From a virus: 64,000 nucleotides of DNA. A model generated the notes under the pieces. That model made no database searches. It had not been told where the DNA came from and worked only from the letters and a program-made list of their open reading frames with translations. This document shows positions 2,644 through 62,852 of this stretch, in pieces. The stretch lies in IMG/VR virus record IMGVR_UViG_3300005528_000046, positions 29,323-93,322 of that record; one strand, written 5' to 3'. Position numbers and translations under genes: made by a program. Numbering within the stretch: the stretch's first letter is position 1; each line of letters starts with the position of its first letter.

Positions 2644-4308
2644 TTAAAGAGTGTTTAATCCGTGTACGTATACTTTACCGTAGAATTCTGGACGAACTAC
2701 TTTCTTCGCGTAACGTGTCATAACACCTTTACGTGGAGTAAAGTTAACTGGATCATATACAAGCGGAGTCATAATCAATGGAATATATGGAGAGAATACA
2801 GCACCTGTTTCAAGGAATTGCGAACCTCTGAAGCCCATTAAGATTACATTTTCTAACATGTATGGATTTTTATAAACCGTGTAGCGATTATTAATTGAAC
2901 CAATTTTTTGTACACCTGCTGCAAATTCCATCTTTGTTCCATCAGTATCAGCAGCAAATCCAGGAATTGATTCAAGGATAGTTGCAACCGCAGGAGATGT
3001 TACTAGGAAGTTAGCACCACCACGCAATGTTTTTTGGTGAATCTTATTTGATACTTTTTGCAGTTTAGTACCGAGAGTTTGGAACCAACCACCTTGTGTA
3101 TTGTAATATCCATCACCAACCGCGGTTGCAGCGCCAGCACCTGATTGTGTAAATCCAGATCCGTTCCAGAAATTATTATTTAATGCTGACCAATACTCAG
3201 TTGTCGGAGCTGCGGCAATCAACATATCGAGAATTTCGAGATCAATTTCCATTGATACATACTCAGAAAGCATTGAAGTCAATTCAGCTTCAGCATCAAT
3301 TGAGTGGTACGCATTAAGATCTTGAGCAAATTCAGGAGTCCATACTGCTTTCAACTTACGAGTCTTAGCAACGATTGGCTCTGATTGCATTTCAAGATTG
3401 ATTTCCGGAATATCAATATCTGTACCAACATTAATACCAGATTGACCGGATCCTTTGAAAGGATTTTTATCTTCAAAATCTCCTCTAGTAATGTCAGTAG
3501 GTTGAATACTATAATTGATCTTTGGATTTGCAGATGCACTAACTAATGTAGCTAATGAAGAAGATTGTGCAGTAGTTACGATAAACGATGCAGTATAGTT
3601 ACTATCAATTTTAGAAAATGCCTGTACAGGAATCAATTCAGTGTTTCCAGAACCTGATAATAATGTAAATGAACGAACTGCATATAAATCAGCATTAGTA
3701 GGAATAGGCATTGTAACTAAAGCGTATTGACTTGGCAAGAATGCACTATCAAAATTAAGAGATGCTGATGTAGCAGCTCCAATTGTAAATGATGCAAAAC
3801 CTACAGATCCAGTTACGTTATTAATTGAATAACCAAAACGACCTGCACCATAAAGACCGCCAGCTGCATCAGAACCGGTAGTAGTAACACCAAACATGGA
3901 ATCTAATGCATTAGGATTACCAAATGGATCACCTGTACGAAGATTATTATCATCATCAAATCCAGGCTGAGCTGTACCATACTTAAAATCTAGATAGAAG
4001 ATAAGTCCTGATGGCAAGTTCATTGGCTGAACTGAAACGAATTCTTTTGCAGCAAATTCAGCAAAAATTCTTCTTACCAAAGGAAGTGCAACACCTGCCC
4101 ATTCTTCTGATCCAGCCGTTGTCCCTGTAGAAGTTGCTTCTTTTACTAATTGACGTGCTTGGTTTTCAAGCAATTGGGCCATACCTGCTCTTTCGGTTTC
4201 ACCCTTAAGACCTTCCAATAGTCCGGTCTTTTCCCATTTTGCTGATAACGCTTTTGCTTGATTTCTTTGTACAAAATCGTTAGTTTGCAATAAATTTGAA
4301 ATACTCAT
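2644..4308 (-). CDS. gp23: major capsid protein gp23-like
   Basis: A 554-residue T4-type major head protein precursor. The N-terminal 57 residues look like the propeptide removed during maturation: QLVKE at 53-57 fits the hydrophobic-x-E cleavage rule of gp21 protease, giving a mature form starting ATSTGT. Further marks are the ALPLVRRIFAEFAAKEFVSVQP block near 73-94 and the C-terminal GKVYVHGLNTL. It lies downstream of the scaffold gene (27-base gap) and has an AAAAGGAAAA purine run before its ATG. A clear hairpin terminator follows the stop. Confidence 0.92.
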   Translation of the reverse strand: MSISNLLQTNDFVQRNQAKALSAKWEKTGLLEGLKGETERAGMAQLLENQARQLVKEATSTGTTAGSEEWAGVALPLVRRIFAEFAAKEFVSVQPMNLPSGLIFYLDFKYGTAQPGFDDDNNLRTGDPFGNPNALDSMFGVTTTGSDAAGGLYGAGRFGYSINNVTGSVGFASFTIGAATSASLNFDSAFLPSQYALVTMPIPTNADLYAVRSFTLLSGSGNTELIPVQAFSKIDSNYTASFIVTTAQSSSLATLVSASANPKINYSIQPTDITRGDFEDKNPFKGSGQSGINVGTDIDIPEINLEMQSEPIVAKTRKLKAVWTPEFAQDLNAYHSIDAEAELTSMLSEYVSMEIDLEILDMLIAAAPTTEYWSALNNNFWNGSGFTQSGAGAATAVGDGYYNTQGGWFQTLGTKLQKVSNKIHQKTLRGGANFLVTSPAVATILESIPGFAADTDGTKMEFAAGVQKIGSINNRYTVYKNPYMLENVILMGFRGSQFLETGAVFSPYIPLIMTPLVYDPVNFTPRKGVMTRYAKKVVRPEFYGKVYVHGLNTL

Positions 4309-4335
4309 TTTGTTTTTTCCTTTTCTTTTTTAATG

Positions 4336-5382
4336 TTATAGCAATCCTGCTAATTTTTTCCATCTGTTAGCTAACTCAAATCCTTCAGACAATACTTGAG
4401 TTGTTTCTTTTTTAGGAGCTGTGGTTGCAACTGGTTTAGATGCATACGACTCTTTAACTACTCTTTTCTTAGTTGCTGGACGTTTGAATGATTCAGCTAA
4501 CGTTGTAAATACTAATTTTACTTCTCTAGTGTTTCCTGCACGATCAAAGTTTTCAATTACTTTCATTTTTTGACCTTCATTCAACTCAAAATTGCGGAAC
4601 AATTTGTTTGTGTAAAGAAGTTTTGCATTAAGAAGATTAACTTCGTTGATGATGCTAGTAAGTTTTTTAACTGTTCGATAAGCTTCTTCAAGCTCTTCTT
4701 TCATTGTTTCAACTTCGCCATCAGTTCCTGCAGGTACTCCTACTTCTTCTTCAGCATCCATGTCATCTTCACGAAGAATAGCTTCAATAATTTCGTCGAT
4801 TGATTCATCTAACTCTTCATCTTCGCCTTCTTCTAATTCTTTGTCATCATCATGATGCATTCCCTCTGGCATTAGATCATCTTCTTCCTCTTCCATTTCT
4901 TCAGGCATTCCTGCTTCCAATTCGCGGATGATAGATTCTAATTCTAGATCTTCATCATCATGACCATAACCTTCATTGTACTCTGCATTCGCGTCTTCAT
5001 CTGAAATTGGAGCTTCTTCGCCTGGAAGTTCTTCACCTCCTAGATCTTCTTCATCTCCACCAGCCATTCCGACTTGAAAATCATAATCTTGACCGCCTAC
5101 TGTTGCTGACAATGAATCATCAGTCCAAGTAAAGTCTTCTTCTCCGCCTTCAGCTCCCATATCAGCTCCCATATCAGCATCAGCATCAACACCCATAGTG
5201 TCAGCTGCAGCATCTATTTCTTCTTCTTCGCCTTCGATTTCATTTGTTAGTTTTGTAGCTAACATTCTTTCTAGACGAGGAGCAAAAGCTTCTTGCAGAG
5301 CAATTTTTGCGTTTGCTAATGCAGTTTCTTTAACAGCATTTGCGTCGGCGATTGCTTGTTTTAGCAAATCTGATTTTGCCAT
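4336..5382 (-). CDS. gp22: prohead core scaffold protein gp22-like
   Basis: A 348-residue, extremely acidic protein: long Glu/Asp runs fill residues about 50-200, with helical N- and C-terminal parts. This composition, size and position directly before the major capsid gene match the internal scaffold (gp22) of T4-like proheads, which is digested by gp21 at maturation. The C-terminus FELANRWKKLAGLL is amphipathic. The start is preceded by AGGGGAAAA and by a leader of about 130 bases with two hairpins. It should form one transcript with the capsid gene. Confidence 0.75.
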   Translation of the reverse strand: MAKSDLLKQAIADANAVKETALANAKIALQEAFAPRLERMLATKLTNEIEGEEEEIDAAADTMGVDADADMGADMGAEGGEEDFTWTDDSLSATVGGQDYDFQVGMAGGDEEDLGGEELPGEEAPISDEDANAEYNEGYGHDDEDLELESIIRELEAGMPEEMEEEEDDLMPEGMHHDDDKELEEGEDEELDESIDEIIEAILREDDMDAEEEVGVPAGTDGEVETMKEELEEAYRTVKKLTSIINEVNLLNAKLLYTNKLFRNFELNEGQKMKVIENFDRAGNTREVKLVFTTLAESFKRPATKKRVVKESYASKPVATTAPKKETTQVLSEGFELANRWKKLAGLL

Positions 5383-5416
5383 AATTGTTTTCCCCTAAAT
5401 TTTTTTTTTTGGAAAT

Positions 5417-5566: not shown

Positions 5567-5812
5567 TTATTTAGAATGCATATCTCGTATGTATTGTAAA
5601 TAAGAAGCTTTAGAATGTTCTTGCCGTTTAACTACGCTAGGCTTGATGTATTCTTTGTGTGCTTTAATTGTTTCTAATACACCTGATTGCTTTACTTTGC
5701 GTTTCCATGTTTTAAGTGCAGCTGCTAAATCTTCTCTACTACTTCCTGGTACATGTACTGCTAATGAATTGCCAGGAACAATCATTTGATGTTGTTTTTG
5801 TTTTTTACTCAT
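5567..5812 (-). CDS. rpsU: phage-encoded ribosomal protein bS21 homologue
   Basis: An 81-residue basic protein. Residues 28-76 match the bS21 pattern: a helix with ALKTWKRKVKQSGVL, then IKPSVVKRQ, then KASYLQYIRD. The KPSV-K-R and KA-Y-Q-R spacing is the form I associate with Bacteroidota bS21. bS21 binds the 30S platform near the 3' end of 16S rRNA. In Flavobacterium it helps to sequester the anti-Shine-Dalgarno sequence. The gene sits in the head-assembly cluster and is followed by a strong terminator. The first 20 residues are an unmatched extension. Confidence 0.85.
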   Translation of the reverse strand: MSKKQKQHQMIVPGNSLAVHVPGSSREDLAAALKTWKRKVKQSGVLETIKAHKEYIKPSVVKRQEHSKASYLQYIRDMHSK

Positions 5813-5821
5813 ATATTGTGT

Positions 5822-6328
5822 TTAAATATTTTCTGGAGCTTGTGGTGTTGTACGTTGTGGCATTTTTTTCTCACCACGTACATTGAATCGAAAATGTTTG
5901 ATTTCTGGTTTTTGTGCAATGTATCCTTGTATGCGTTGCGATTCTCTTGCAGGATCTTGCCCTAATCTAAAATAAAAATAACCAACTTTACCGGTAGGAG
6001 ATATAGTATGTTTAACTACGGTAAATCCTTTACGCTCAGCCCATTCACGTATTTCTTGTGCTACAGCTTTTGCCTCTGCAGGATCTCTAAGTACATATTC
6101 AACACCACCTCGATAATCGGTTATGTTATTAACTAATTGAGCTTCATCTATTTCTTCAGAAGTCATGCCTTTCATTAAAGCTTGAGTCTTTTGTAGTTCT
6201 TTGTTATAGTTTGCTAAATTTACCGTATCTTTTGGATCTAATCCAGGAACTACCGGATGTTTAGATGTTGGAGTTGATTGTTCCGTTAAACCAAAAAAGT
6301 CTCGATATAATTTTTTAAGTTTATTCAT
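5822..6328 (-). CDS. unknown head-region protein with possible gp21-cleavable leader
   Basis: A 168-residue protein; the ATG at 6328 is chosen over an upstream in-frame start because AAGGTATAAA precedes it and the N-terminus then reads MNKLKKLYRDFFGLTEQ. GLTE near residue 16 resembles a gp21 protease site. The middle has a Glu-rich helix (DEAQLV, AEAKAVAQEIREWAERKG) followed by beta-like strands (GKVGYFYFRLG). No known family recognised. Its place between the protease and bS21 genes suggests a head core protein. Confidence 0.7.
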   Translation of the reverse strand: MNKLKKLYRDFFGLTEQSTPTSKHPVVPGLDPKDTVNLANYNKELQKTQALMKGMTSEEIDEAQLVNNITDYRGGVEYVLRDPAEAKAVAQEIREWAERKGFTVVKHTISPTGKVGYFYFRLGQDPARESQRIQGYIAQKPEIKHFRFNVRGEKKMPQRTTPQAPENI

Positions 6329-6747: not shown

Positions 6748-7374
6748 TTATATCCTACATTTTCCATCTTCACAGAGTATAGATGTAATTGCATCATGTA
6801 CTCTTGCGTATTTATTTGTCGTTGTTTTATTTACTGATTCATTCATTCGTGTTGGTCGCATAAAAGCTCCATGTGTCGATGGATTTGATACAAAGTCCCA
6901 ACAAATTAATTCAAAATCTTCTTGTACTTCTACAGTGCCTTCATTACGTAGTTCTTTTACAGATCCCAAACCACGTGATGATATTCCCAAAGTAATTCCT
7001 GCACGAAATAATTCTTTAAGGATTTTTCCCGAAGGTGTATCTAATACTTGAACCGTTCCAAGTAAATCATCACCATTCCACCATATTTTTAAAACGTTAT
7101 GTGATACATTGTTCAAGTTAACTACAGATGATTCTGGATGATCTAACTCGCCTAATGCTCTATGCTGATCAATATATTCACGCTGATAACGTTGACATTC
7201 TCTTTGCAATATATGTTTAGGATATACTCGTCCGTTTTGGTTTTTAGCTCCTGCTCTTTGTAAAACTCCTTGCACTACAAAACCACCCGGTATTCCATAT
7301 GCAGAACCATTTGATTCCGTTAAAGAACCAACAGGTCGAAATGGCATATATTCTACTATAAGTTGTTTTGACAT
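6748..7374 (-). CDS. gp21: prohead core protease gp21-like
   Basis: A 208-residue serine protease of the prohead protease family. The probable catalytic His is in LGELDHP (H79) and the Ser in GISSRGLG (132-133); the GVLQRAGAKNQNGRVYP block (36-52) and the C-terminal FVSNPSTHGAFM segment are typical of T4-like gp21. In T4 it cleaves scaffold, capsid and internal proteins after hydrophobic-x-E. Located between portal-side genes and the scaffold/capsid genes as in T4. It starts with an ATG after GGGGAATAAT. Confidence 0.9.
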   Translation of the reverse strand: MSKQLIVEYMPFRPVGSLTESNGSAYGIPGGFVVQGVLQRAGAKNQNGRVYPKHILQRECQRYQREYIDQHRALGELDHPESSVVNLNNVSHNVLKIWWNGDDLLGTVQVLDTPSGKILKELFRAGITLGISSRGLGSVKELRNEGTVEVQEDFELICWDFVSNPSTHGAFMRPTRMNESVNKTTTNKYARVHDAITSILCEDGKCRI

Positions 7375-7375: not shown

Positions 7376-8086
7376 TTATTCCCCTAATGATCTTACTCGT
7401 TCTGATATTTTGATTAATTTTTCTGAAATTTTTTGTAGTGCCTTTGTGGTGCTAGGTCCATATGCTGAGCTAGTTACTCCTGCTTCAGTTTTTAATCTGG
7501 TATTGTAATTTACCATAGTTTCAATTTCATGAAGTTTTTTAGCAATTTCTTGAATAGTCTTTTTAACTTTTTGTTCTGGGGATGTATCTTTATCACCCGT
7601 TACAAAATCACGATATCCCTCAATTAATTGTTCATATTTACGTTCTAGAACTTCTTCTACTTTTAATGTATGTGGGTTTCCCACTTTCAATGTTTTATGT
7701 TTTTTAGTAGCGGTACCATGTCCTTTAGTATTATCTACAGAAGGATATTTATATTCATCATGTTGCCAATCTGATTCATTCATTGAAAATGGAAATTTTG
7801 CCATATATTCTTCTTCTTCTGATTCTGGTCTTTGGTGATGATAATCATCCTTTAAAGAATAATTTGGAGGAGTATTAACTGATTCTTCTACACCAGATGC
7901 ATATCCTACTCGTTTTACTTTTTTACGAAAAGCATTCGGTGTATTATATCCGGCAATAGCACCAGTAACATTTTGTTCATCAATTTCTTCATCACATTTG
8001 CATTGATCTTTTGGTTGACCACAATCATCGCAATGATTTTCTAATTCAACAAATTTATCTTCTATTTCACGCAAAAATGATTTCAT
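7376..8086 (-). CDS. head-region protein with N-terminal Cys cluster
   Basis: A 236-residue protein starting MKSFLREIEDKF. Residues about 19-30 carry CDDCGQPKDQCKC, a likely zinc-binding cluster. A GAIAGYNTPNAF motif follows near 43-54, a type of segment seen in head proteins of marine T4-like phages. The C-terminal half is helical with a coiled-coil-like stretch. Its start overlaps the stop of the next upstream gene. Probably a prohead core or vertex-associated protein; exact role unknown. Confidence 0.65.
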   Translation of the reverse strand: MKSFLREIEDKFVELENHCDDCGQPKDQCKCDEEIDEQNVTGAIAGYNTPNAFRKKVKRVGYASGVEESVNTPPNYSLKDDYHHQRPESEEEEYMAKFPFSMNESDWQHDEYKYPSVDNTKGHGTATKKHKTLKVGNPHTLKVEEVLERKYEQLIEGYRDFVTGDKDTSPEQKVKKTIQEIAKKLHEIETMVNYNTRLKTEAGVTSSAYGPSTTKALQKISEKLIKISERVRSLGE

Positions 8087-8976: not shown

Positions 8977-10809
8977 TTATAAAATATTGTTTTCATCTAG
9001 CATTGTGCCTGCGTCTAAATCTGTTTCTGTAGATTTCTTAAATGTTTCTGTAATAATACTTACTCCAGATTTACCTGACTTCATACCTTTTACAATGCTT
9101 TCTGTACGCGTTACTGATAATTTTGATTTGAAATTTGGATCAGGTTGATACGTTGTTTTTCTTTGTTCTGGATTAAAAGTTTGCCTAACTTGTTTTGTCC
9201 CTGTAGGATCCCATCCAAACTCATTACGATGCTGTCCTGATTTTATTCCTTCAGGTGGACGACCTCCTTGATCTTTTTCTTCAACTTCTTTGCTTGACAT
9301 ATGTACCGTTGCTAAATCGTGTGGTGTTCCAAATGATACTCCCGTTACAGCAGGGTCATTACCTTCTTGTTCAATTTGATTTTGACGGAATCTAAGTTTA
9401 AGATCTTCTAAGACATCATTGCGTTCTTGCAACCATTGATCTTCGGACATATTGAATATAAACTCATAAATGTATCGATCTGAAACTAATTTGCTATCTT
9501 TCATTGCGTTTGCTAATGTAATTTTTTCATTCATTAACGCAACTTTTTGTTGGTCATAAATAATAGAAGGAGCTGTTAATTCTAACTCAAATCCAACTAA
9601 ATCTTCTCCTTCAAAGCCTTGTGCATATAAATGTACAATAGCAACTTTTACTAATTCTGATACTACAATTTTTTGTATGCGTTCAATAGTTCTAGCAAAT
9701 CGAATATCAATTGATGCTAAGTTAACTTTGCCTTCTTGTGACTCACCATAACCTAAAAATGGTTTAGGAATTTTAAGAGCGGCCATCATTTTATCTTTGA
9801 TATATTCAATATCATCCATACCCGTAAAAGTCATTCCGGGCAATGTATCAATTGTAGTAGATGATTGACCTCCACGAACTGGTAAGTAATAATCTTCCAT
9901 CATGTTATTAAGATTAAATCTTAAATTGTAATTTCCAGTTTGTGGATCAATATGTGGAATTTTTTTCATCTTATTGATAATTTGTTCCATGAAAGTATCA
10001 ACTTCATTAGGAGGAATATTACCAATATCAATTTTAAAAATACGTTTTTCCGGAGCTCTCATGATACGATGTATTAACATTGCATCTTCCATCATCATTA
10101 ATTTTTGAAATTCTTTACGAGCTCCTTCTAACATGGATCTACCGTACGGTAAAAAGTTAGAATCGGATAACATACGGAAATGTGCAATCTCAAATGTATC
10201 ATATGTCATTTGTTCTGCAGCAACATTTTTAAATTTTATTTCATATTCGCCAGTAGCCTGATTATATTCTTCCCATCGCTCCATTTCATAACTAGAAAAA
10301 GGACGTGCATTGATAATTCCTATTTCTTCAGCAATATCTAATTTTAAAAAGAAATCACCATATTTGGTCATGTTTCGAATCCATGTCCACAGATTAAATT
10401 CTACATTTAAAACATCATAAAATAAATTGTATAGAATTTTTTGTATGCGAGTGTTGTTAGTTTTAATAGTAAGTATTTCTCCAAACTGATCTGCTAATGT
10501 AGATTCATCTGAATAAATATCTAATGCCGCAGATATAATTGGATCTTTATCCATCATTTCATAATCAGCATAAAGCTGCATACGATTTTGATGCATATAA
10601 TAGTTAGAATCATATCCACCCATACCTCCTACACGATGTTTATTAGCACCATGCAGACGCATATATCGGTCCGCGACTTTGCTTTGAGCTAAATTTCCAA
10701 CACCTTGTAAACGATTGGTATCTACTACTCGTAGTTTGTCTTTTCCATACGCACGTACAACTACGTTAGTACTAAAAAGATTTTGTAAACGTTTTCTTAA
10801 TGACGCCAT
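8977..10809 (-). CDS. gp20: portal vertex protein gp20-like
   Basis: A 610-residue portal protein, which forms the dodecameric ring through which DNA enters the head and nucleates prohead assembly. T4-like signatures are visible: DYEMMDKDPIISAALDIYSDEST near 82-105, FLKLDIAEEIGI, RAPEKRIFKIDIGN near 250, and a glycine-rich PVRGGQSSTTIDTLPG. The C-terminal 100 residues are hydrophilic. The ATG lies 15 bases after an ATATTTAT box. Confidence 0.92.
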   Translation of the reverse strand: MASLRKRLQNLFSTNVVVRAYGKDKLRVVDTNRLQGVGNLAQSKVADRYMRLHGANKHRVGGMGGYDSNYYMHQNRMQLYADYEMMDKDPIISAALDIYSDESTLADQFGEILTIKTNNTRIQKILYNLFYDVLNVEFNLWTWIRNMTKYGDFFLKLDIAEEIGIINARPFSSYEMERWEEYNQATGEYEIKFKNVAAEQMTYDTFEIAHFRMLSDSNFLPYGRSMLEGARKEFQKLMMMEDAMLIHRIMRAPEKRIFKIDIGNIPPNEVDTFMEQIINKMKKIPHIDPQTGNYNLRFNLNNMMEDYYLPVRGGQSSTTIDTLPGMTFTGMDDIEYIKDKMMAALKIPKPFLGYGESQEGKVNLASIDIRFARTIERIQKIVVSELVKVAIVHLYAQGFEGEDLVGFELELTAPSIIYDQQKVALMNEKITLANAMKDSKLVSDRYIYEFIFNMSEDQWLQERNDVLEDLKLRFRQNQIEQEGNDPAVTGVSFGTPHDLATVHMSSKEVEEKDQGGRPPEGIKSGQHRNEFGWDPTGTKQVRQTFNPEQRKTTYQPDPNFKSKLSVTRTESIVKGMKSGKSGVSIITETFKKSTETDLDAGTMLDENNIL

Positions 10810-10857: not shown

Positions 10858-12438
10858 TTAACGTATCAACCAAGTTAAATCTTGATCTCCGTCACCTGGA
10901 TTCCAATTCCATCCGTTGTTTTGTTGAGTATTTTTGCCGGTATATATAACTTCACTTGTTTTTGTAAACTGAGATAAAGCACGTTTATTTAAATCAATTC
11001 CTTGTTGACGAAGTTTTAAAGCGGTATCACGTAACCAAAGTGTAATAGCAAATGACATTACAAGGTCGTCATTATATCCTTGTTGTGCCTGTGCTTTGCC
11101 GTTCAACCAAACAAATACTAGTAATTCTTGTATAAGACGTTTACTTCGTATTACGGGAGTTCGTTCTCGCATATACATTTCTAATGCTGATATCATTAAT
11201 GGGCGTGTTCTACTAGTAGTTGATACTCCAGGAACCATTTGGCTCTTATCTTTCATATCATAGCCTTTTTTCAATTGAACCGATGCATCTGTATATCCGT
11301 CATCTTTATATGTATAATGTAGATTTTGATAACCTCGATCTAATGCCGGTTGAATTGCAGCCCAACCAATATTAGCATTTTCAATTGCTAGTAAAGCATT
11401 ATTCCATTCTGTTGCAACCGTTACAAGCATATTACCAAAATCATTTGGTGCAATTTTACCTTTATATTCTGCAACTTGTCGTACTGATTCAACATCAAAT
11501 ATTTGAAATGTAGAATAATCTCCCCCATCACCTCGTGCAACGTCAGCTACTACTGTGTAATCTTTTGCGTAGTCTGGATATTCCCATATCCAATAATTTC
11601 CATCAAATCCGCGTCTTTCAATCGGATCTTCTGTTTTAATGTCATATTCAAGCAACAATGGACCATCTACTACAGTATGACCAGAACTGACGAAGTCACA
11701 ATCGCATTCTTGTGCCGCACCTCGTTCCCCTAATAATTGTGTTTGTTCATCACGCCAGGCCTGGTCTCGTTCTGGATGTACGGTCCAATGCAATTTAATT
11801 GTATGAAATCCATTTATTCCAGCTTCCGCATCTGCCCATGTTTGATGAAACCAATTACCAACACCATTTGGAGTTGATAATACAATTGCACCACCACCCG
11901 TTGATAGTGTTGCTTGTGATGCTATCCATATTTCTTCAATATTACGTATAAATGCTGCCTCATCCACAATTAGCAGTGATAATGCTTCTGAACGTGCACC
12001 GGTGGTTGCAGATGATACTGCTTTGATTTGTGAACCATTTTTAAATTTAAGTGATAATTTATTGTCAGCTTCAACTGTTCCTTTTAACCAACTTGGTAAA
12101 TTATCGTGCATTACACGTACTTTAGTAACTAAGTTTTTTGCTACTTCTTGTGTTGTTGCAATAACAAGTACGTTAAAATCTTCTGCAAACAACATGCTCC
12201 ATAGAGCAAATCCTGCTGAAAGAGTTGATATACCCAACTGACGAGACTTGAGAATAACATTGTATCTATTATCTCGTAGTTCTGTTAATGAATCTTCTTG
12301 AAATGGAAATAGATTAAATTTAATTTTACCACGTTTAGGATGTTGAATGTAACAATAGTTACGCATAAAAAATACAGGATCTTTAGCACATTGCATGTAC
12401 TGTTGCTGTATTATTTGCTTTATGTTCGGCTGAGACAT
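10858..12438 (-). CDS. gp17: terminase large subunit gp17-like
   Basis: A 526-residue DNA-packaging motor protein. The ATPase half has the Walker A variant KSRQLGIST (64-72) and Walker B LLIVDEAAF (154-162). The RNase H-like nuclease half has the acidic residues in VVADVARGDGGDYS, in LAIENANIG and in YNDDLVMSFA. Its length is a little short of T4 gp17 (610). It is followed 48 bases later by the portal gene. Genes for sheath and tube (18 and 19), which separate 17 and 20 in T4, are not here. Confidence 0.93.
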   Translation of the reverse strand: MSQPNIKQIIQQQYMQCAKDPVFFMRNYCYIQHPKRGKIKFNLFPFQEDSLTELRDNRYNVILKSRQLGISTLSAGFALWSMLFAEDFNVLVIATTQEVAKNLVTKVRVMHDNLPSWLKGTVEADNKLSLKFKNGSQIKAVSSATTGARSEALSLLIVDEAAFIRNIEEIWIASQATLSTGGGAIVLSTPNGVGNWFHQTWADAEAGINGFHTIKLHWTVHPERDQAWRDEQTQLLGERGAAQECDCDFVSSGHTVVDGPLLLEYDIKTEDPIERRGFDGNYWIWEYPDYAKDYTVVADVARGDGGDYSTFQIFDVESVRQVAEYKGKIAPNDFGNMLVTVATEWNNALLAIENANIGWAAIQPALDRGYQNLHYTYKDDGYTDASVQLKKGYDMKDKSQMVPGVSTTSRTRPLMISALEMYMRERTPVIRSKRLIQELLVFVWLNGKAQAQQGYNDDLVMSFAITLWLRDTALKLRQQGIDLNKRALSQFTKTSEVIYTGKNTQQNNGWNWNPGDGDQDLTWLIR

Positions 12439-13815: not shown

Positions 13816-14673
13816 TTAATCGTTGTTATTAGATTGTCGTTTAGGTGTTAATAAAGATATTTTTTTATTAGAAAATTTTCTTAATAAACGATAAAAATCT
13901 CGTTCTTCACTAGGATCATCTGGATTACTTAATACTTTTAAAAATTTACTAAGTTTAGATAATCTTTTAATATTTCCTAATTCCGAGGAACCAAATTCAT
14001 CTGATTTTAATACTTCTGGTTGTTCTATATCTGCAGTTGGAGTTGCAGCTGCAGTTGGAGTTGTAGGCGTAGTTGTATCAGTTGGAGGTGTTGCTGCAGC
14101 ATCAACCGGTGGTGTTGCAGATGCATCTGGAGTTGCTGTAATATCAGCTGGTGGTGTAGCTGTTGCATCAGTTGGTGGAGTTGCAGTTGCATCAGCTGCA
14201 GGAGTTTCTGTTTCTGGAGCTTCTGGTTCTTCTGTTGGTGTAGTTTCAGGTGTTGGTTGTTCTAATAAAACTTTAACTATTTTTCTACGAACATATTCTC
14301 TAACTAAACGTTCTTTTTGTTCGCGAGTTAAATTTTCAATTTTATCTTTTATTACGTCCTTTGTTTCTTTTTCTTCTGTATCTTGACGCTTCTTAAGACG
14401 TTTTGCTGCGGTTTTAGGATCATAATCACCAGTCTCTATGTCTTTATATAGACGATCATCATCATTGTATTTAACATACATATCGCCAGTATCAACCATT
14501 TCTTTATCACGTTTTCTCAAAACATTGAGTTGTGCATCTCCAGTAGAACGAGGATTTTGACCTCCTTTTTTATCATCTTCTGTATAATCTTTGATATCTT
14601 TACGTGGTTTTGGTTTTTGAGATTTTTCAAAATCTTTTGGTGCCTTATACTTGCTTTTATGTTTTTCAGCCAT
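13816..14673 (-). CDS. disordered protein with Ala-Thr-Pro repeats
   Basis: A 285-residue protein in three parts: a Lys/Asp-rich N-terminus (1-110), a helical segment ending KIVKVLLEQPTPE (131-143), then an Ala-Thr-Pro-Asp repeat tract (161-198, period about 8 residues), and a basic C-terminus. LLEQ resembles the gp21 cleavage rule, so the repeat part could be released in the prohead. No family recognised. The ATG is 22 bases after an ATATTTAT box. Confidence 0.65.
   Translation of the reverse strand: MAEKHKSKYKAPKDFEKSQKPKPRKDIKDYTEDDKKGGQNPRSTGDAQLNVLRKRDKEMVDTGDMYVKYNDDDRLYKDIETGDYDPKTAAKRLKKRQDTEEKETKDVIKDKIENLTREQKERLVREYVRRKIVKVLLEQPTPETTPTEEPEAPETETPAADATATPPTDATATPPADITATPDASATPPVDAAATPPTDTTTPTTPTAAATPTADIEQPEVLKSDEFGSSELGNIKRLSKLSKFLKVLSNPDDPSEERDFYRLLRKFSNKKISLLTPKRQSNNND
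14080..14193 (-). repeat. short tandem coding repeat, about 24 bases
   Basis: Degenerate tandem units encoding DATATPPT-like octapeptides, four to five copies, within the disordered protein. One unit is shortened to six residues. Such tracts vary in copy number and usually form flexible linkers. Confidence 0.7.
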
Positions 14674-14694: not shown

Positions 14695-14702
14695 ATAAAT
14701 AT
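14695..14702 (-). promoter_or_regulatory. late promoter-like box
   Basis: ATATTTAT, 22 bases before the repeat-protein gene; overlaps the stop of the fusion enzyme gene. Confidence 0.55.
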
Positions 14703-17194
14703 CATCGAGCGTACTTTAATACTCCTAAAATCTGATTTACCGGTGCGAATGCGCCTGTCATCTTATATGTATTACCTCGATATGTAAATACTATGCCTTC
14801 TGTTGGTACAATTGCATCAAATCCTCCTAATTTTTGAATTCTTTTAAGTTCTAATTCCAATTTTGCAAGTGTTGCTGGATTTGGCGATATTTGCAATTCT
14901 TTAATAAGTTGTGCTAAATCTGTTTTAATATCTTGCACTGTTTTTGATGGATTTGCTGCTAAAAAGTTTGTAGCATTTTGTAATACTAAAACACCTAATC
15001 GTAAAAATATAGATTCAAATGGTTCTAAATTTTGTTTGCGATATTTTTTAAAATCTGATTTATCAAATTCAGTTACCCAAGCTTGGAATGCATCATTATC
15101 AATTTGTTTTTTAAGCATTGCAATGTTTACGGATTTATCTTCAAATGCCCAACGATATATCAATGTAGTTAATACTGAATCTGGTATATCATATCCTAAT
15201 TCTGTAGCTTTTGTTTGTATTACATCACGCCACCACGCTTTATGGTAATCACTTAATAAATCTGTATCTTTTAAACTAAATTTATCTCGTAACTGATCAA
15301 TTTCATTATAAAATGCAGCTTGTTGATCTTCAAAATCATAAACCTGACCTAATTTAATTTGCTGTGGAGGAATAAATGAAAACGTTTTTTGCATATGTGC
15401 ATTAGCATCTTGTATAATGTTTTGCATTAATGCACCACCTGTTAAATCCGTTTCAACAGTATTTCCTCGTTCATCATATTCTACAAGATTATGAAATTGC
15501 AAATGTGCTTTATCATATGCAATAACATTTTTAGTTGCTGGATAAATTATTTCCATGTTAGCAAATACTCGACCATTTTTAAATATTTGTTGCAATTTAT
15601 CTGCAGGTATTTTATTTAAAGCTTCGGTTAAGTCTTCAGCACATGCACGATATGCATCTACTATTAATTTATATCCTTCAGCAGCTTCTATACCATTTTT
15701 ATCGACAGATTCTTGATACTTTCTTTCAAAATCTGCAATTAATTGATCCGGGGTCATTGGATTAATGATAGTACCTTTATTACGAGCAAATCCGGGCTGA
15801 CCATCTTTCCAAGTAACTTGTATGTTTTGTCCATCTGTTTTCTCAGTTACAGCTTGTTCTATATCTAAACGTCCAGATAATGCTCTAGATACAATTTCAC
15901 GTACATCATTAAATGTTAATCCGTGATCATCCCATGGATGTGCCATATGACCTGCAGCACCTCCTTCTGTTAATACGCCTCCCGTTTTTAAACGAGATTC
16001 GATGGTATAAATAATATCTTCTGGATTATTTGATTGCCAACGTTTGCGTTGCTTTTTAATTGTTCTAGGAATCAATTCAATCATTTTTTTGCGAGGATTC
16101 CATTGTAACATGAACGGCATATGAATTGGAATATCAAATTGATAATCAGATCCAACACCGGTAGGTCGTTCTAAATTCAATTGTCTTGCAATTTTATCGC
16201 CATATTCATTAGCTAAGTCTTCAAAAAAGTCTCGTAACTCATCCGTATAGATCGGAGCTTCGTTTCTGGGATCATTCAATCTATCAATGAAATGTGTAAA
16301 CTTGCCTTGAAAATCTACATCGATTCCATATTCTTTAAAAAATCCATCAACTGCAGATTCAATAGCTGATAATTCTTGACGTGTAATGTAGTTTTCTGTT
16401 ATGATACTTTCTACTAGTTTTGCACCATATACAGTTTTGTTAAATGTATCAAAATCATATACAAAATCCTCACCTCGATGGTTATCTAAGAATGCACGTA
16501 ATTTTTTAATTTTATCTGCATGACGTTTCTTTTCACGCGGAAACATCATTGATTCTGCAACTTCTTCTACATCTTCCTGCAGTTGTTTTGTCCACCAATT
16601 TTTAGTAAATACAGCTTCCTGTACACCTGTTAATATTTGCCATGCATTTTTAACTTTAGCATCATCGTATTGTGGATACGCAGTCCTAAACGCAGCATAA
16701 TCTCCGGTAGCAATAGCATTACGAACATTAGTAGCTGATATAGGTTCATCATTACTTGTTAATGGATCTACATTGATGTTTAATTCTACAGCATCAACAC
16801 CGCGCGGTATAGTTCGACCTTTTTTATCTCCTATAGTAGCATATTTATCTACATTTGGAATAAAATCTTTTGCTCGAACATAATCATCCCCTTTTGCAGA
16901 TGCAGCCATTGCATAACGACCGGTAGCATCTTCCGGCAATGCAAATAAATATTCATACGCAGCCATGATAGGAGAATTAAATTCGGTTGGTTGTATTTCA
17001 ATTTGTGGATTGTCATTTAATAAATCAAACATTTCCATAGTTTTTTCACGCGTAATTCCATCACGTTCTTTAGGACCAATTAGTAATATAACTCGATTAA
17101 CATCTGGATGCTGTGCATATCGATTTGCTAAATCTAAATGTGCCCCTGTTATAGGTTTAAATCCTCCTGGAAAAAGTACTGTTGTTTCGTTCAT
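14702..17194 (-). CDS. nucleotidyltransferase / nucleic acid ligase-like fusion
   Basis: An 830-residue two-enzyme protein. Residues 1-190 form a HIGH-superfamily nucleotidyltransferase (NMNAT/cytidylyltransferase-like): PGGFKPITGAHLDL at 9-22 and the distal ISATNVR at 152-158. From about 410 the protein looks like an ATP-dependent ligase or nucleotidyltransferase: EKTDGQN at 451-457 (KxDG, motif I, probable K452), VFANMEIIYP (motif III-like), and TEGIVFTYRGNTYKMTG near the end (motifs IV-V). The middle (210-400) is unassigned. Together these suggest NAD-related or RNA-end chemistry, but substrates cannot be read from sequence. The ATG is 17 bases after an ATATTTAT box. Confidence 0.75.
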   Translation of the reverse strand: MNETTVLFPGGFKPITGAHLDLANRYAQHPDVNRVILLIGPKERDGITREKTMEMFDLLNDNPQIEIQPTEFNSPIMAAYEYLFALPEDATGRYAMAASAKGDDYVRAKDFIPNVDKYATIGDKKGRTIPRGVDAVELNINVDPLTSNDEPISATNVRNAIATGDYAAFRTAYPQYDDAKVKNAWQILTGVQEAVFTKNWWTKQLQEDVEEVAESMMFPREKKRHADKIKKLRAFLDNHRGEDFVYDFDTFNKTVYGAKLVESIITENYITRQELSAIESAVDGFFKEYGIDVDFQGKFTHFIDRLNDPRNEAPIYTDELRDFFEDLANEYGDKIARQLNLERPTGVGSDYQFDIPIHMPFMLQWNPRKKMIELIPRTIKKQRKRWQSNNPEDIIYTIESRLKTGGVLTEGGAAGHMAHPWDDHGLTFNDVREIVSRALSGRLDIEQAVTEKTDGQNIQVTWKDGQPGFARNKGTIINPMTPDQLIADFERKYQESVDKNGIEAAEGYKLIVDAYRACAEDLTEALNKIPADKLQQIFKNGRVFANMEIIYPATKNVIAYDKAHLQFHNLVEYDERGNTVETDLTGGALMQNIIQDANAHMQKTFSFIPPQQIKLGQVYDFEDQQAAFYNEIDQLRDKFSLKDTDLLSDYHKAWWRDVIQTKATELGYDIPDSVLTTLIYRWAFEDKSVNIAMLKKQIDNDAFQAWVTEFDKSDFKKYRKQNLEPFESIFLRLGVLVLQNATNFLAANPSKTVQDIKTDLAQLIKELQISPNPATLAKLELELKRIQKLGGFDAIVPTEGIVFTYRGNTYKMTGAFAPVNQILGVLKYAR

Positions 17195-58408: not shown

Positions 58409-58633
58409 TTATGCCAACTCACATAGTATTGCAAATGCTTCTCGGCTGTCTGGCAATGTGAAGTCTGCTTCTATACCTAACTGCCTCAGGAGGCCGTCAA
58501 TGGCACACCAGCGGCTTCTTGCTGACTGATGCAGTGGAGACTCTTTGCCATAATCTCTTTGCGACTTCTTGCACTCTAGGAATGCTGCTGCTTCTACGGC
58601 TTGGATGGTTGCGATCATTTCTTTCTTTGTCAT
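58409..58633 (-). CDS. small early protein
   Basis: A 74-residue protein starting MTKKEMIATIQAVEAAAFLE, with an Ala/Leu/Glu-rich helical pattern (SARSRWCAIDGLLRQLG). Related in style to the 68-residue protein at 60.1 kb (MTRQDIIATAEAF): both share a short helical start. Read from the promoter at 58.93 kb with the membrane gene. Confidence 0.6.
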   Translation of the reverse strand: MTKKEMIATIQAVEAAAFLECKKSQRDYGKESPLHQSARSRWCAIDGLLRQLGIEADFTLPDSREAFAILCELA

Positions 58634-58683
58634 ACTCTCTCTTTTTATATTGGTTACTTGATTACTTTGGTTTGCTGGGTTAA

Positions 58684-58887
58684 TTAGTCTAACTTGCTAT
58701 CTGCATAAGCCGCAATCATAATTGCTGAGATAAGTGTCGTTATAGCTCCTACCGGTACTACTAGGAATGCTACTAGGATGCTTATTGACTTAAGTGCTAA
58801 GAATGCTACTGCCGTTGCTGTGGTTAATGTTAACACTGTAACTGCGATTGCTAATAATGCTGCGATAACTTTAATTGAATTTTTCAT
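58684..58887 (-). CDS. small early membrane protein
   Basis: A 67-residue protein with two membrane segments (about 5-30 and 35-60) and a short polar end (YADSKLD). The early promoter block lies 25 bases upstream. Small membrane proteins in phage early regions often interfere with superinfection or host envelope functions; nothing specific is visible. Confidence 0.6.
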   Translation of the reverse strand: MKNSIKVIAALLAIAVTVLTLTTATAVAFLALKSISILVAFLVVPVGAITTLISAIMIAAYADSKLD

Positions 58888-58911
58888 ATCTCTATCTTTT
58901 TAATTATAAAA

Positions 58912-58942
58912 TAAAGATACCGATAATATCAATGCGAGTCAA
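58912..58942 (-). promoter_or_regulatory. early promoter
   Basis: Minus strand TTGAC, 20-base gap from TTG including CGCATTGA, then TATCTTTA. A-rich/GTTTGC block upstream. Drives the small membrane gene. Confidence 0.7.
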
Positions 58943-58996
58943 CCTTTTTGCAAACTTTTTTCGAACTTTTTTTGACGTGCTTTTATATAGTCCACC

Positions 58997-59022
58997 AGGG
59001 CCGACATTTTAGCGTCAACCCC
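58997..59022 (-). ncRNA. conserved RNA hairpin, copy 1
   Basis: On the minus strand GGGGTTGACG, loop, TGTCGGCCCT folds into a 10-bp stem using G-U pairs. It lies after the AAA+ gene. A second copy at 60.3 kb has changed bases that still pair, which suggests selection for the structure. Confidence 0.55.
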
Positions 59023-59048
59023 AGTTTCCTATTTGAGAGATATGATTT

Positions 59049-59990
59049 CTATTCTACCGAGATGATTTGTTCTGCTACCATCTCCTCAGGATTGTCAAAG
59101 CCCATTGCACATATCCTTGCTGCTTTGATGAAGCTTCTGAGATTAACTTCAATGCCGGCATACTTTGCATCCAGGCTCTTCATAATCTCCAATGCCTGCT
59201 GCTTCGCTGCCAAAGGAATGCTACGCTCCATGCTCTCCATCAATTGCTCCATGCGCTGGAACATTTGGGTGGTGTTCATTGAGATGTCTGCTACAAAGCT
59301 ACGGCTTCGGATTGCTTCATCTAATCGGCTTTGACTGATGTTGCTAATGAATATGATGCGACCTGTAAACTCAAAGTGAGCTGGTACCGGGTTGCCCCAC
59401 TCGTCTTTAAGAGGCTTGCTTGAGATATAAGATATCTTGCGTGTGTCATAGCTATCCAGAGCCGCTTTGAGGATGTTCACTGCATCATCGTCTTTGAATA
59501 CAGAGTCACAGTCATCCAACACAACTATCTTGTCGGAGTTCTGATATAGCGTGATAAACAATCCGGCTGCGGTAGCACGACCTTTAAAGTGAACAAAGTC
59601 TGAGGACTCCTTCAAGCCCATTTGTCTGAGCGTGTCTTTTACTAGGTGAGTCTTGCCGACACCTGCCATACCGGTAAGCACTAAGCTAGGTTGAATGCCT
59701 CGCCCTACCATTTTAGTCAGACGCTCCAAGTTAGAAAACATCACAGCTGGGTCACGCTTCTCAATCACATTGAGGAAAGACATCTTAGCGGGTGCTGTAG
59801 CCTTTGTGGACTTAGGTGCATCAATTCTTGTAACACGACCGTTGGGTGCTACTAACAATTGCTGCTGATTCTTCTCAGCATTCAATAGCTGGATGTGTCG
59901 GATTGAATCCTTAGGAGCAAACTCTCCTGTTGCTACACACTTTGCCATTAACTTGCCTTTTACTCTTACTGCTTCAAATACTCTCATCAT
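59049..59990 (-). CDS. AAA+ ATPase
   Basis: A 313-residue AAA+ family protein. Walker A is GMAGVGKTH (107-115), Walker B IVVLDDCDS near 155, and sensor-type IIFISNIS with a following arginine-rich helix (LDEAIRSRSF) near 230-250. The N-terminal 70 residues are a separate beta domain. Such proteins remodel nucleoprotein complexes; the early location suggests host takeover or replication start. The start may be either of two consecutive ATGs (59990 or 59987). Confidence 0.8.
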   Translation of the reverse strand: MMRVFEAVRVKGKLMAKCVATGEFAPKDSIRHIQLLNAEKNQQQLLVAPNGRVTRIDAPKSTKATAPAKMSFLNVIEKRDPAVMFSNLERLTKMVGRGIQPSLVLTGMAGVGKTHLVKDTLRQMGLKESSDFVHFKGRATAAGLFITLYQNSDKIVVLDDCDSVFKDDDAVNILKAALDSYDTRKISYISSKPLKDEWGNPVPAHFEFTGRIIFISNISQSRLDEAIRSRSFVADISMNTTQMFQRMEQLMESMERSIPLAAKQQALEIMKSLDAKYAGIEVNLRSFIKAARICAMGFDNPEEMVAEQIISVE

Positions 59991-60013
59991 ATCTCTTATT
60001 TTTTTAATTTATA

Positions 60014-60045
60014 TAAATTTAATGAATTTATCAATGCGATCCTAA
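60014..60045 (-). promoter_or_regulatory. early promoter
   Basis: Minus strand TTAGGA, CGCATTGA, then TAAATTTA; the -33 box is TAGGA rather than TTGAC. Drives the AAA+ gene. Confidence 0.65.
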
Positions 60046-60072
60046 TCTTTTGCAAACTTTTTTTAAACTTTT

Positions 60073-60279
60073 TTATAGGCCGGAAAACTCCCCGTCGACG
60101 AACAATAAAGCTTCTCCCGGCTCTAATCCAGCAACTGCGAGGTTGAGGTATCCGTCATTAGGATCCGAGATGTTGTCCATATCGAGGATAGCAAAGTCGA
60201 CTCCTTGCTGTTCCAATATTGTTATAAACCCTTTTGCCCGGAAGGCTTCTGCTGTTGCGATGATGTCTTGTCTTGTCAT
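60073..60279 (-). CDS. small acidic early protein
   Basis: A 68-residue acidic protein starting MTRQDIIATAEAFRAKG, with an N-terminal helix and a C-terminal strand region (AVAGLEPGEALLFVDG). No family. No promoter of its own, so it is probably read from the 60.83-kb promoter. Confidence 0.6.
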   Translation of the reverse strand: MTRQDIIATAEAFRAKGFITILEQQGVDFAILDMDNISDPNDGYLNLAVAGLEPGEALLFVDGEFSGL

Positions 60280-60305
60280 ATCTCTGATTGTTTCTCACGT
60301 CCTTA

Positions 60306-60329
60306 AGGGCCGACATTTCTGCCGACCCT
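60306..60329 (-). ncRNA. conserved RNA hairpin, copy 2
   Basis: Minus strand AGGGTCGGCA, loop GAAA, TGTCGGCCCT. It pairs like copy 1 (58997-59022) although several stem bases differ; AAATGTCGGCCCT is common to both. It lies between two co-transcribed small genes. Confidence 0.55.
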
Positions 60330-60350
60330 GGACTATGTTGAGAGATATGT

Positions 60351-60803
60351 TTACTCTGCTAGTGTCGCCTCATAGGCTGTGTCATGCGGATTGTCTCCTC
60401 GCTCCAACTCTACTACATCTGTCAAGATGCCTTCTTCCGCTGCTTCTTGTTGAGCCTGAATGAATCCATCTTCTTCCTCAACAACAAACTCATCAAGTGC
60501 ACTCGTCACATGCTCCATAATAGCTCTAGTGTCAACATCAACTCTGTCTAGGCGGATTGTGTTATTGTAATCCAATTCAAATTCGGCGCTGGCGGTGTCA
60601 ACAAAATCATCAGAGTTGTAATCTAAGCATCGCTCAATTTTATCTGCAATTTCCTCTGCCAACTCTTGCGTTATGCCCAACTTCGTTTCGACAACAATTT
60701 CAGGCTCCAATTGCTGGATAAGTGCAATTACATTGTCGATTGATACTACTGAGGTTAGCGCCTTTACTCCCTCTAACTGTGCAATTAAATTTTCTTTTTT
60801 CAT
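60351..60803 (-). CDS. acidic early protein, unknown
   Basis: A 150-residue very acidic protein starting MKKENLIAQLEGVKALTSVVSI. The composition (Glu/Asp/Val/Ala) and lack of motifs suggest a small regulator or DNA mimic, but no family is recognised. Promoter block 25 bases upstream. Confidence 0.6.
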   Translation of the reverse strand: MKKENLIAQLEGVKALTSVVSIDNVIALIQQLEPEIVVETKLGITQELAEEIADKIERCLDYNSDDFVDTASAEFELDYNNTIRLDRVDVDTRAIMEHVTSALDEFVVEEEDGFIQAQQEAAEEGILTDVVELERGDNPHDTAYEATLAE

Positions 60804-60827
60804 CTCTCTTATTTTTTAATTATACTA

Positions 60828-60858
60828 TAAATTTAATAAATTAATCAATGCGTGTCAA
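60828..60858 (-). promoter_or_regulatory. early promoter
   Basis: Minus strand TTGAC, CGCATTGA, TAAATTTA; 20 bases between TTG and TA. Drives the 150-residue acidic gene. Confidence 0.7.
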
Positions 60859-60887
60859 GCATTTTGCAAACTTTTTTTAAACTTTTT

Positions 60888-61052
60888 TTATCCGAAGAAT
60901 CCTCCGGCGGATAGGATCCAAATGAAGATTGCTGCATCTATCAACTTATAGAAGATGTTGTGTTCTCCGCTTTTAGGGCGTCCATGGAAGTGTGCTGTGA
61001 TCAACAATTGAAGTCCTATTAGAACTAGTAAAATGATTTGTGGTGCTCCCAT
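60888..61052 (-). CDS. small two-pass membrane protein
   Basis: A 54-residue protein with two hydrophobic segments separated by a polar loop (HFHGRPKSGEHN). Ends SAGGFFG. Follows the 88-residue gene by 8 bases and so shares its transcript. Confidence 0.6.
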   Translation of the reverse strand: MGAPQIILLVLIGLQLLITAHFHGRPKSGEHNIFYKLIDAAIFIWILSAGGFFG

Positions 61053-61060
61053 CGTGTTAA

Positions 61061-61327
61061 TTAATTAAGGTTAATACTGTTATTGATTGCTTCGCGGCTC
61101 AAATCCATCGCCGTAGTCTTGCTTGTCTTTGCCTCAGCAAACTTTGCCAATACCGCAGCCATCTCCATTACTTCTCCGCGGGATACGGCTTTCATCAACA
61201 TCGGTATGATTAGGCTCAATGCTGCGAAATCTTCGTCTCCGGTTATGATTGCTAGGTTCAATGCACTCTCTGCGGATTCATTCATTTGAGCTCCTAGCTC
61301 CTGGATCATTCTTCTTAGTTCTTCCAT
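61061..61327 (-). CDS. small helical early protein
   Basis: An 88-residue Ala/Glu/Met-rich helical protein starting MEELRRMIQELGAQMNES. No motif. GAGAGAGATGG at its start matches the purine-rich leaders of the early genes. Confidence 0.6.
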   Translation of the reverse strand: MEELRRMIQELGAQMNESAESALNLAIITGDEDFAALSLIIPMLMKAVSRGEVMEMAAVLAKFAEAKTSKTTAMDLSREAINNSINLN

Positions 61328-61345
61328 CTCTCTCTTTTTTAGTTA

Positions 61346-61462
61346 TTAATTTAATGATACTGTGTTAACAAACAATACACCGGCTAAATGCTGCTGTAAA
61401 CGCTTTCTTTCGATTTGCTCTACCTGGAGCTTTGCTGTGAGTCTTTTAAATGGCTTTTTCAT
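61346..61462 (-). CDS. very small early protein
   Basis: A 38-residue basic protein reading MKKPFKRLTAKLQVEQIERK, then a short hydrophobic end. The early promoter 20 bases upstream and the AAGAGATATG-type start support it. Confidence 0.55.
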   Translation of the reverse strand: MKKPFKRLTAKLQVEQIERKRLQQHLAGVLFVNTVSLN

Positions 61463-61481
61463 ATCTCTTAATTTTATAATA

Positions 61482-61512
61482 TAAAGATAAGGATAATATC
61501 AATGCGTGTCAA
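61482..61512 (-). promoter_or_regulatory. early promoter
   Basis: Minus strand TTGAC, CGCATTGA, TATCTTTA. The A-rich/GTTTGC part upstream is partly replaced by the end of the sigma gene. Confidence 0.65.
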
Positions 61513-61540
61513 GCATTTTCCGGAAAAAGTTTCAGAAAAG

Positions 61541-62281: not shown

Positions 62282-62282
62282 C

Positions 62283-62384
62283 TTATTTTTGTAACTCGTT
62301 AACTGATTGGACAATTATTTTAACGCAACTGGCGATCATCAATACTAGGACCGCCATTGCCAATGTGCATGCTACTACTTTCAT
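62283..62384 (-). CDS. tiny lipoprotein-like protein
   Basis: A 33-residue protein: MKVVACTLAMAVLVLMIASC is a signal sequence ending in a lipobox-like MIASC. Its ATG overlaps the stop of the previous gene (ATGA) and its stop lies one base before the sigma ATG. The tight packing supports translation. Confidence 0.5.
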   Translation of the reverse strand: MKVVACTLAMAVLVLMIASCVKIIVQSVNELQK

Positions 62385-62578: not shown

Positions 62579-62600
62579 ATCTCTTATTTTTTTATATACT

Positions 62601-62631
62601 TAAATTTAATGAATTAATCAATGCGTGTCAA
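62601..62631 (-). promoter_or_regulatory. early promoter
   Basis: Minus strand TTGAC, CGCATTGA, TAAATTTA. Drives the three-gene unit ending in the sigma factor. Confidence 0.7.
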
Positions 62632-62849: not shown

Positions 62850-62852
62850 ATC

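Follow-up and report, generated by a model that had tools for sequence, protein, structure and literature searches.

Why should a phage carry its own gene for the ribosomal protein bS21? The question is raised by a stretch of 64,000 nucleotides, the window analysed here, which covers positions 29,323-93,322 of the 93,322-bp virus record IMGVR_UViG_3300005528_000046. The gene (5567..5812, minus strand, ATG start) encodes 81 amino acids and matches the Pfam model Ribosomal_S21 (PF01165) with an E-value of 2.5e-12 and 46.8 bits, where the curated cut-off is 27; it is the only match to that model in the whole record. The sequence-only reading of the window, which rightly saw a phage-encoded bS21, noted that bS21 of Flavobacterium helps to hide the anti-Shine-Dalgarno (anti-SD) sequence of 16S RNA, and proposed that a phage bS21 with an altered N-terminus frees it in favour of phage messages. 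Comparison with relatives suggests that the virus retunes host ribosomes toward its late messages, although the pattern is not proof. SD sites accompany phage bS21, favour late over early genes, and are missing from the start of the bS21 gene itself. We give about an even chance to a late switch: phage bS21 would join the 30S subunits late in infection and make the anti-SD usable.

Shine-Dalgarno sites and phage bS21 across relatives

SD-like sites were counted as any of the words AGGA, GGAG, GAGG and AAGG. AGGG, GGGG and GGGA were added for starts in the window's own clade (the KK-type clade), for the comparison of homologous starts, for Flavobacterium rpsU and other genes, and for the split of hosts by arginine or tyrosine. 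With starts chosen blind to SD sites, AAGG lies between -17 and -4 at 28 of the 105 starts in the full record, while 200 dinucleotide shuffles gave a mean of 5.5 (standard deviation 2.1, maximum 12). AAGGA occurs at 15 of the 105 (shuffle mean 2.2, maximum 6), so SD-like sites are enriched over random; G is most frequent at -9 to -7. The canonical words AGGAG, GGAGG and GAGGT were rejected as the signal, being found at 2/105 starts against a shuffle mean of 1.2. All later counts use ATG starts only, except that GTG and TTG were allowed for Flavobacterium rpsU.

With one gene caller throughout, AAGG was found at 24/93 ATG starts in the present record, 24/117 in G004, 23/76 in G005, 20/75 in G006 and 22/63 in G009, where about 5-6% would be expected. 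The corresponding counts were 0/48 in Flavobacterium phage immuto, 2/68 in G011, 33/1083 in Flavobacterium loci and 12/40 for late starts of T4. Mel-JY01 has AAGG at 5 of 39 ATG starts, and 17 of the 39 carry AGGA, GGAG or GAGG. PF01165 finds no match across the 160,410 bp of immuto, nor in the G018 and G019 records; the bS21 of G011 has host length and a histidine at position 54.

The association was then measured over loci centred on the capsid gene, for which 78 of 139 sources were kept (27 were too short on the upstream side of the capsid gene, 13 gave no capsid hit, 19 had duplicate capsid proteins and 2 a cut bS21). SD words stand at 542 of 1069 starts in the 57 loci with bS21 and at 47 of 384 in the 21 without. 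Loci whose bS21 has an extension of at least 13 residues reach 426/799 (43 loci, lowest fraction 0.27), those with a shorter bS21 116/270 (14 loci, range 0.05-0.59), and the highest fraction among bS21-less loci is 0.31. With the cut set at 0.32, both traits are present in 54 loci and neither in 21; the three discordant ones are L316, L321 and the window, the last because its 64 kb take in early genes. At a cut of 0.25, 6/78 are discordant. A terminase-centred set (23 of 80 loci used) gave SD words at 132/308 starts over 19 extended loci, the other usable loci being L488 (4/15, no bS21), L490 (8/18), L493 (13/21) and L494 (1/18). In our first set of loci (65 of 90 used), the 45 extended ones lay at 0.25 or above and the remaining 19, without T4, at 0.25 or below. 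That split broke in the wider sets, where the cut of 13 classed ten Mel-JY01-like loci, with 10-12 extra bS21 residues, as non-extended. The extension was rejected as a strict requirement, since L546, L539, L490 and L493 in the wider sets are SD-rich without it.

Phage bS21 might instead simply substitute for host bS21 and leave the choice of mRNA unchanged, for example to complete ribosomes or to escape host control, with the link to SD sites a by-product of shared ancestry. On the capsid tree bS21 presence changes 5 times and SD use (cut 0.32) 6 times, and so few independent changes suit such substitution, as do the retained equivalent of Tyr54 described below and the view that phage bS21 may work essentially like the host's (Chen 2022, PMC9723584). 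Ancestry alone is nevertheless insufficient for the conservation of SD sites at homologous starts and for the early/late split within the bS21 phages, and we regard this explanation as very improbable.

Early and late starts, and the host

Early and late starts were told apart by regular expressions of our own, slightly revised between the per-phage test and the pooled count. In nine bS21 phages (the present record, G004, G005, G006, G009, G013, G014, G020 and Mel-JY01), SD sites stand at 109 of 221 starts behind the late word TATTTAT or ATTTATA, against 18 of 176 behind host-type promoters. The excess is seen for leaders of 17-22 nucleotides (late 47/70, early 5/30) and of 23-39 (39/62 and 7/47), and leaders of 0-11 nucleotides have almost no SD sites (0/37 and 4/67). 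The comparison phages G011, G018, G019 and immuto, which lack bS21 or have one of host length, carry SD sites at 1/109 late and 3/65 host-type-promoter starts. Operon-internal starts show the same contrast, 208/762 in the bS21 phages and 17/262 in the comparison phages, so the SD site is not a promoter element. Phage by phage, the excess of late over early reaches p <0.05 in 7 of 9; the values for the present record and Mel-JY01 are 0.24 and 0.3. Under these first rules the present record has SD sites at 10/23 late and 2/9 early starts, and because the excess is not significant there, relatives are needed to see it. The picture of late genes led by SD sites thus holds across relatives and falls short in the record taken alone.

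Early genes at 58-64 kb of the window have leaders AATAAGAGAG or AAAAGAGAG, in which none of the four SD words is present; one host-type early promoter (TTGACA ... AATAAGAGAG ATG) lies at 60804..60878 on the minus strand. The region 58409-63607 (minus strand) holds a series of small early genes whose promoters are nearly identical (TTGACA or TTAGGA, CGCATTGA, TATATTTAA), with AATAAGAGAG or AAAAGAGAG preceding the ATG, and the leader of this array is found again in G004 (L240, L241). Late genes of the window, such as 8977-10809 and 14702-17194, have the promoter word TATTTATA about 20 nucleotides upstream of the ATG, which makes late leaders very short. The same word is common also to immuto and other bS21-less relatives.

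The bS21 phages might infect bacteria that read SD sites, in which case SD sites and bS21 would both be marks of host range and bS21 would not be causal. T4, whose host reads SD sites, serves as a control: it has them at 35/62 early-region and 27/40 late-region starts, unlike the mostly SD-less genes behind host-type promoters in the bS21 phages. The bS21 of the window's clade is moreover of the Tyr/Phe type, as in SD-poor Flavobacterium, and the promoter boxes are similar to those of immuto. A difference of hosts draws support from G006, whose boxes read TATAAT and not TAnnTTT, from the clustering of both bS21 and SD use on the capsid tree, and from the indirect nature of the host assignment. 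It also draws on a small, score-biased sample of loci from the Bacteroidota phylum (L392-L421, the best 30 of 384 matches), in which 23 of 30 have arginine at bS21 position 54; there the Arg-type loci carry SD sites at 21/70 other genes and the Tyr-type loci at 2/23. On balance we consider a host difference somewhat unlikely.

A Bacteroidota host, which the sequence-only reading had assumed, is likely from the relationship to immuto, the ranking of solved bS21 chains and the likeness of the early-promoter boxes to those of that phage. Among named phages, Flavobacterium phage immuto and Microcystis phage Mel-JY01 have the closest terminase and capsid proteins, at 54-59% identity. Among solved chains, bS21 of Flavobacterium johnsoniae (7jil_z) ranks first, followed by that of Porphyromonas gingivalis (9i5v, E 3.9e-7), with the third distinct chain at 7e-4. 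The upstream pattern TTG-N20-TAnnTTT[AG] has its spacing peak at 20 in most relatives, with 9 promoters at that spacing in G004, 5 in G005, 2 in G009, 15 in G011, 21 in G013, 5 in G014, 18 in G018, 2 in G019, 9 in G020, 6 in immuto and 8 in Mel-JY01; the present record has 3 at spacing 20 and 3 at 18. G006 has none, showing instead 7 copies of TATAAT, and two stretches of T4 that were searched have none either. TATCTTTA and TATATTTG, two examples of these boxes, are near TAnnTTTG, the flavobacterial box (PMC9723704). Flavobacterium loci L153-L232 have no peak at spacing 20 (7 promoters, against 56 at 23), perhaps because these loci copy one neighbourhood. Promoter geometry alone was rejected as host evidence, since TTG-N20-TA is a sigma-70 spacing too and G006 has TATAAT; the -7 box is more useful.

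Mel-JY01 (PP395634; L236, L423, L424) is labelled with Microcystis elabens as host. Its -7 boxes are of the TATATTTG type, and one of its genes bears the name 'major paralogous domain'. The phage may actually infect a bacterium present in the culture.

The capsid block, bS21 and its neighbour P0002

Within the KK-type clade, with each distinct start from 154 loci counted once, SD sites are found at 75/75 starts of the prohead protease, 70/70 of the scaffold gene, 38/40 of the capsid gene and 57/90 of P0002, the gene next to bS21. They are found at 0/24 portal, 2/15 terminase and 0/84 bS21 starts. When AGGG, GGGG and GGGA are left out, the counts become 55/75 for the protease (gp21), 67/70 for the scaffold (gp22), 38/40 for the capsid (gp23) and 0/84 for bS21. 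The bS21 start has a mean pairing energy of +0.15 kcal/mol, and counted by distinct protein it is SD-less in 91/91 genes. Flavobacterium loci show the reverse pattern, with SD sites at 80/80 rpsU starts (mean -13.15 kcal/mol) and at 55/855 starts of other genes, in agreement with the published account of rpsU as far as it was drawn on here (McNutt 2023, PMC9976891). The sequence-only reading had placed AAGGA-like sites before gp13, gp22, gp23 and leader-bearing genes. Those at gp22 and gp23 are borne out by the clade, while the leader-bearing early genes carry none of the four SD words. The gene at 13816-14673, which may be the gp13 of that reading, has SD sites at 7 of 9 distinct starts in the clade.

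Homologous starts were also compared across classes of bS21. SD sites occur at 28/31 gp21, 40/40 gp22 and 38/39 gp23 starts where bS21 is extended, at 1/14, 12/14 and 11/14 where it is short, and at 4/20, 9/21 and 5/22 where it is absent. Portal starts have them in 6/25 cases with extended bS21 and 0/18 without bS21, and terminase starts in 1/23 cases in bS21 phages. Terminase (10858-12438, minus strand) and portal (8977-10809, minus strand) are thus late yet mostly SD-less, as if low-copy products were kept off the SD route.

Scaffold, protease and capsid have the strongest SD signal, whereas portal and terminase lack it; this would also be expected if SD sites marked late genes of high output, with some other phage or infection-induced factor, or the removal of host bS21, freeing the anti-SD, and with phage bS21 refilling ribosomes or having another role. 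Ribosomes lacking bS21 do prefer SD-led mRNA (McNutt 2023, PMC9976891), four bS21-less loci reach SD fractions of 0.25-0.31, and P0002 is a linked candidate for such a factor. In most loci, however, SD use drops where bS21 is absent, and SD-rich loci with another type of bS21 lack P0002. We judge a separate factor quite unlikely.

The bS21 gene itself belongs to a T4-like capsid block in which every gene is on the minus strand and whose gene order was compared with that of T4. Besides terminase and portal, the block holds the gp21-like prohead protease (6748-7374; Pfam Peptidase_S77, E 2.2e-32), with AGGGGA ahead of it at 7380..7385; a gene of 142 amino acids between the protease and P0002; P0002 (5822..6328); and bS21, whose leader (5813..5834) has none of the SD-like words. 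The gp22-like scaffold gene (4336..5382), with AGGGGA at 5391..5396, is named from its position in the T4 order, a Pfam scan giving no match. The gp23 major capsid gene (2644..4308; Pfam Gp23, E 1.6e-73) has AAGGA at 4318..4322. An ARAGORN search of the window for tRNAs was negative.

Residues 21-78 of the phage bS21 align without gaps to residues 4-61 of F. johnsoniae bS21 (7jil_z, E 2e-9), which it exceeds by 17 N-terminal residues (codons 1-17 at 5762..5812; ungapped alignment, offset 17). The N-terminus is therefore altered, as claimed. The extension is basic, contains KKQKQH and has no aromatic residue. It is invariant at K3, K4, Q5, K6, Q7, H8, P13 and G14 in 19 aligned relatives, and in 91 distinct nucleotide versions of the gene H8 and G14 never vary and K3 and K4 change once each. 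This conservation may partly reflect constraint on A-rich DNA near the start, because the lysine codons there are nearly all AAA. An AlphaFold2 model (mean pLDDT, the predicted local distance difference test score, of 88) makes residues 3-9 a short helix; Foldseek searches of the PDB with this model returned nothing at E <=0.001. No cellular relative of the extended bS21 was seen among 572 matches to two peptide patterns, the only ones used, in the genomes of 84,980 species.

Tyr71 (codon 5600..5602) aligns without gaps to F. johnsoniae Tyr54, so the residue of Bacteroidia type is kept; Tyr or Phe stands there in 90/91 distinct bS21 proteins of the clade. In F. johnsoniae Tyr54 stacks on A1534 (McNutt 2023, PMC9976891). 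Loss of this masking contact, the one contact compared, is rejected for this phage as what frees the anti-SD. As for the extension, it is real and may be the active part, though unmasking by it is a deduction, and some bS21 proteins without it belong to SD-rich loci.

A weaker form of release is suggested by the register of the sites. AAGG pairs with the 3' part of the 16S tail, and in 11 loci of the window's clade AAGG-type sites outnumber GGAG/GAGG by 60 to 16. The counts are 87 and 185 in 35 loci where residue 54 of bS21 is not aromatic, 49 and 43 in 11 other aromatic-54 loci, and 21 and 34 in T4. The lean toward AAGG, together with a Tyr/Phe54 able to hold A1534, would fit partial release of the distal tail, with relatedness as a confounder.

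P0002 accompanies 148/152 KK-type bS21 loci, 6/94 loci with other bS21 and 0/21 without. The head of the protein, MNKLKKLYRDFFGLxE(Q/A), shows strong conservation and resembles a capsid-targeting sequence of T4 with a gp21 cleavage site, so that P0002 may be injected with the DNA. The core is predicted to be ferredoxin-like (pLDDT 89-97 by ten-residue blocks over residues 71-150). Foldseek ranks the designed protein 7lmx first (E 8.3e-4), then the ribosome chain 9i5v_b (2.4e-3) and the S6 permutant 6i69 (2.5e-3), with 7jil_k, which we take to be bS6, at rank 19 (7.7e-3). By a second aligner S6-named chains (Z 9.7-10.6), unnamed mitoribosome chains (up to 11.4) and ACT domains (11.0) tie. Searches of Pfam, PHROGs and PDB sequences for a named family were empty or weak, below cut-off, and no bS6 family was found among the matches listed (Pfam scan, 32 members; 25 of 46 families). 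The fold is compatible with bS6, yet common to ACT and other ferredoxin-like domains. P0002 is a candidate bS21 partner or a candidate injected head protein. Because one side of the anti-SD pocket is formed by bS6 (McNutt 2023, PMC9976891), a two-part kit can be imagined in which extended bS21 and P0002 rebuild that pocket and turn an SD-ignoring ribosome into an SD-reading one, the SD-less bS21 message starting the switch. We consider such a kit decidedly unlikely.

A proposed late switch and its precedents

According to the late switch, early phage genes behind host-type promoters, with their few SD sites, would be translated by unmodified Bacteroidota ribosomes that make little use of such sites. 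The same unmodified ribosomes would produce bS21 from its SD-less start. The phage protein would then replace host bS21 in the 30S subunit and expose the 16S 3' tail to mRNA, at least its 3'-distal UCCUUU part. Late SD-led messages (protease, scaffold and capsid) would gain initiation, and SD-less host messages would not. The sequence-only reading is partly supported, in that SD sites track phage bS21 and late promoters across relatives; loss of the Tyr54 contact as the route to unmasking is what failed.

Several results weigh against the switch. The weakest point is the host, and with it the premise of ribosomes that ignore SD sites, since both are known to us by inference only. The masking residue is retained, and an exposed anti-SD should raise host rpsU too, hindering the phage. 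SD pairing in the phage is weaker than the value below -13 kcal/mol given for rpsU (McNutt 2023, PMC9976891). Only five changes of bS21 presence underlie the association, and sign tests on independent pairs, with 2 supported pairs, cannot reach significance. In the present record, under the revised rules, SD sites stand at 10/24 late and 2/10 early starts (Fisher p 0.21). The four bS21-less loci with elevated SD fractions are L331, L488, L530 and L535, and bS21 without a long extension occurs both in SD-poor loci (L316 5/24, L321 1/20, L494 as above, G011 0/17) and in SD-rich ones (L546 11/25, L539 10/20, and L490 and L493 as above). The gp22 start has its SD site in nine bS21-less relatives, and the gp21 start has one in a single locus of the short class. 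Some phage bS21 genes beyond the clade are SD-led (6/39 of other extended, 10/26 of short), and since portal and terminase starts are also SD-poor, bS21 does not stand alone in its SD-less start.

If the late switch is true, a virus would change which messages a ribosome reads, as a timed switch, in a lineage that normally hides its anti-SD. The SD pattern opens the idea to direct test, since the gp22 and gp23 leaders can serve as reporters in Flavobacterium systems. The idea of bS21 replacement is prior art (Chen 2022, PMC9723584; Al-Shayeb 2020, PMC7162821; McNutt 2023, PMC9976891, each as far as drawn on here). We found no report of SD use that tracks bS21, is biased to late genes and spares the bS21 start in the open-licence PMC literature, surveyed mostly in outline.

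The closest precedent is the freshwater myoviruses with bS21 that infect Bacteroidetes, for which it was proposed that bS21 acts at a late stage and that phage messages are translated preferentially (Chen 2022, PMC9723584). There, as here, the hosts are predicted to be Bacteroidetes, the bS21 gene neighbours those for terminase, portal, prohead protease and capsid, and residue 54 is aromatic. In those phages bS21 is on the strand opposite the structural genes, unlike the shared minus strand here, and the portions of that report consulted do not treat SD sites of phage genes. For the rpS21 of huge phages preferential initiation on phage mRNA was likewise predicted, and the window's bS21 has the feature of their extended rpS21, an N-terminal extension rich in basic residues; in the text consulted SD use is tied to rpS1, not rpS21, with no late/early SD pattern (Al-Shayeb 2020, PMC7162821). 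The bS21 of Pelagibacter phage HTVC008M (Mizuno 2019, PMC6375957) is also a phage protein and is reported to enter the ribosomes of another bacterium, E. coli, although its host group is different and HTVC008M is absent from the 12 records matching P0001 at E up to 10. In the autoregulation of F. johnsoniae rpsU, a system for which a phage bS21 swap has been discussed, preference for SD-led mRNA depends on the ribosome's bS21 state, as proposed here (McNutt 2023, PMC9976891). The arrangement differs, in that bS21 of the phage clade is SD-less, the structural genes are SD-led and the pairing is weaker.
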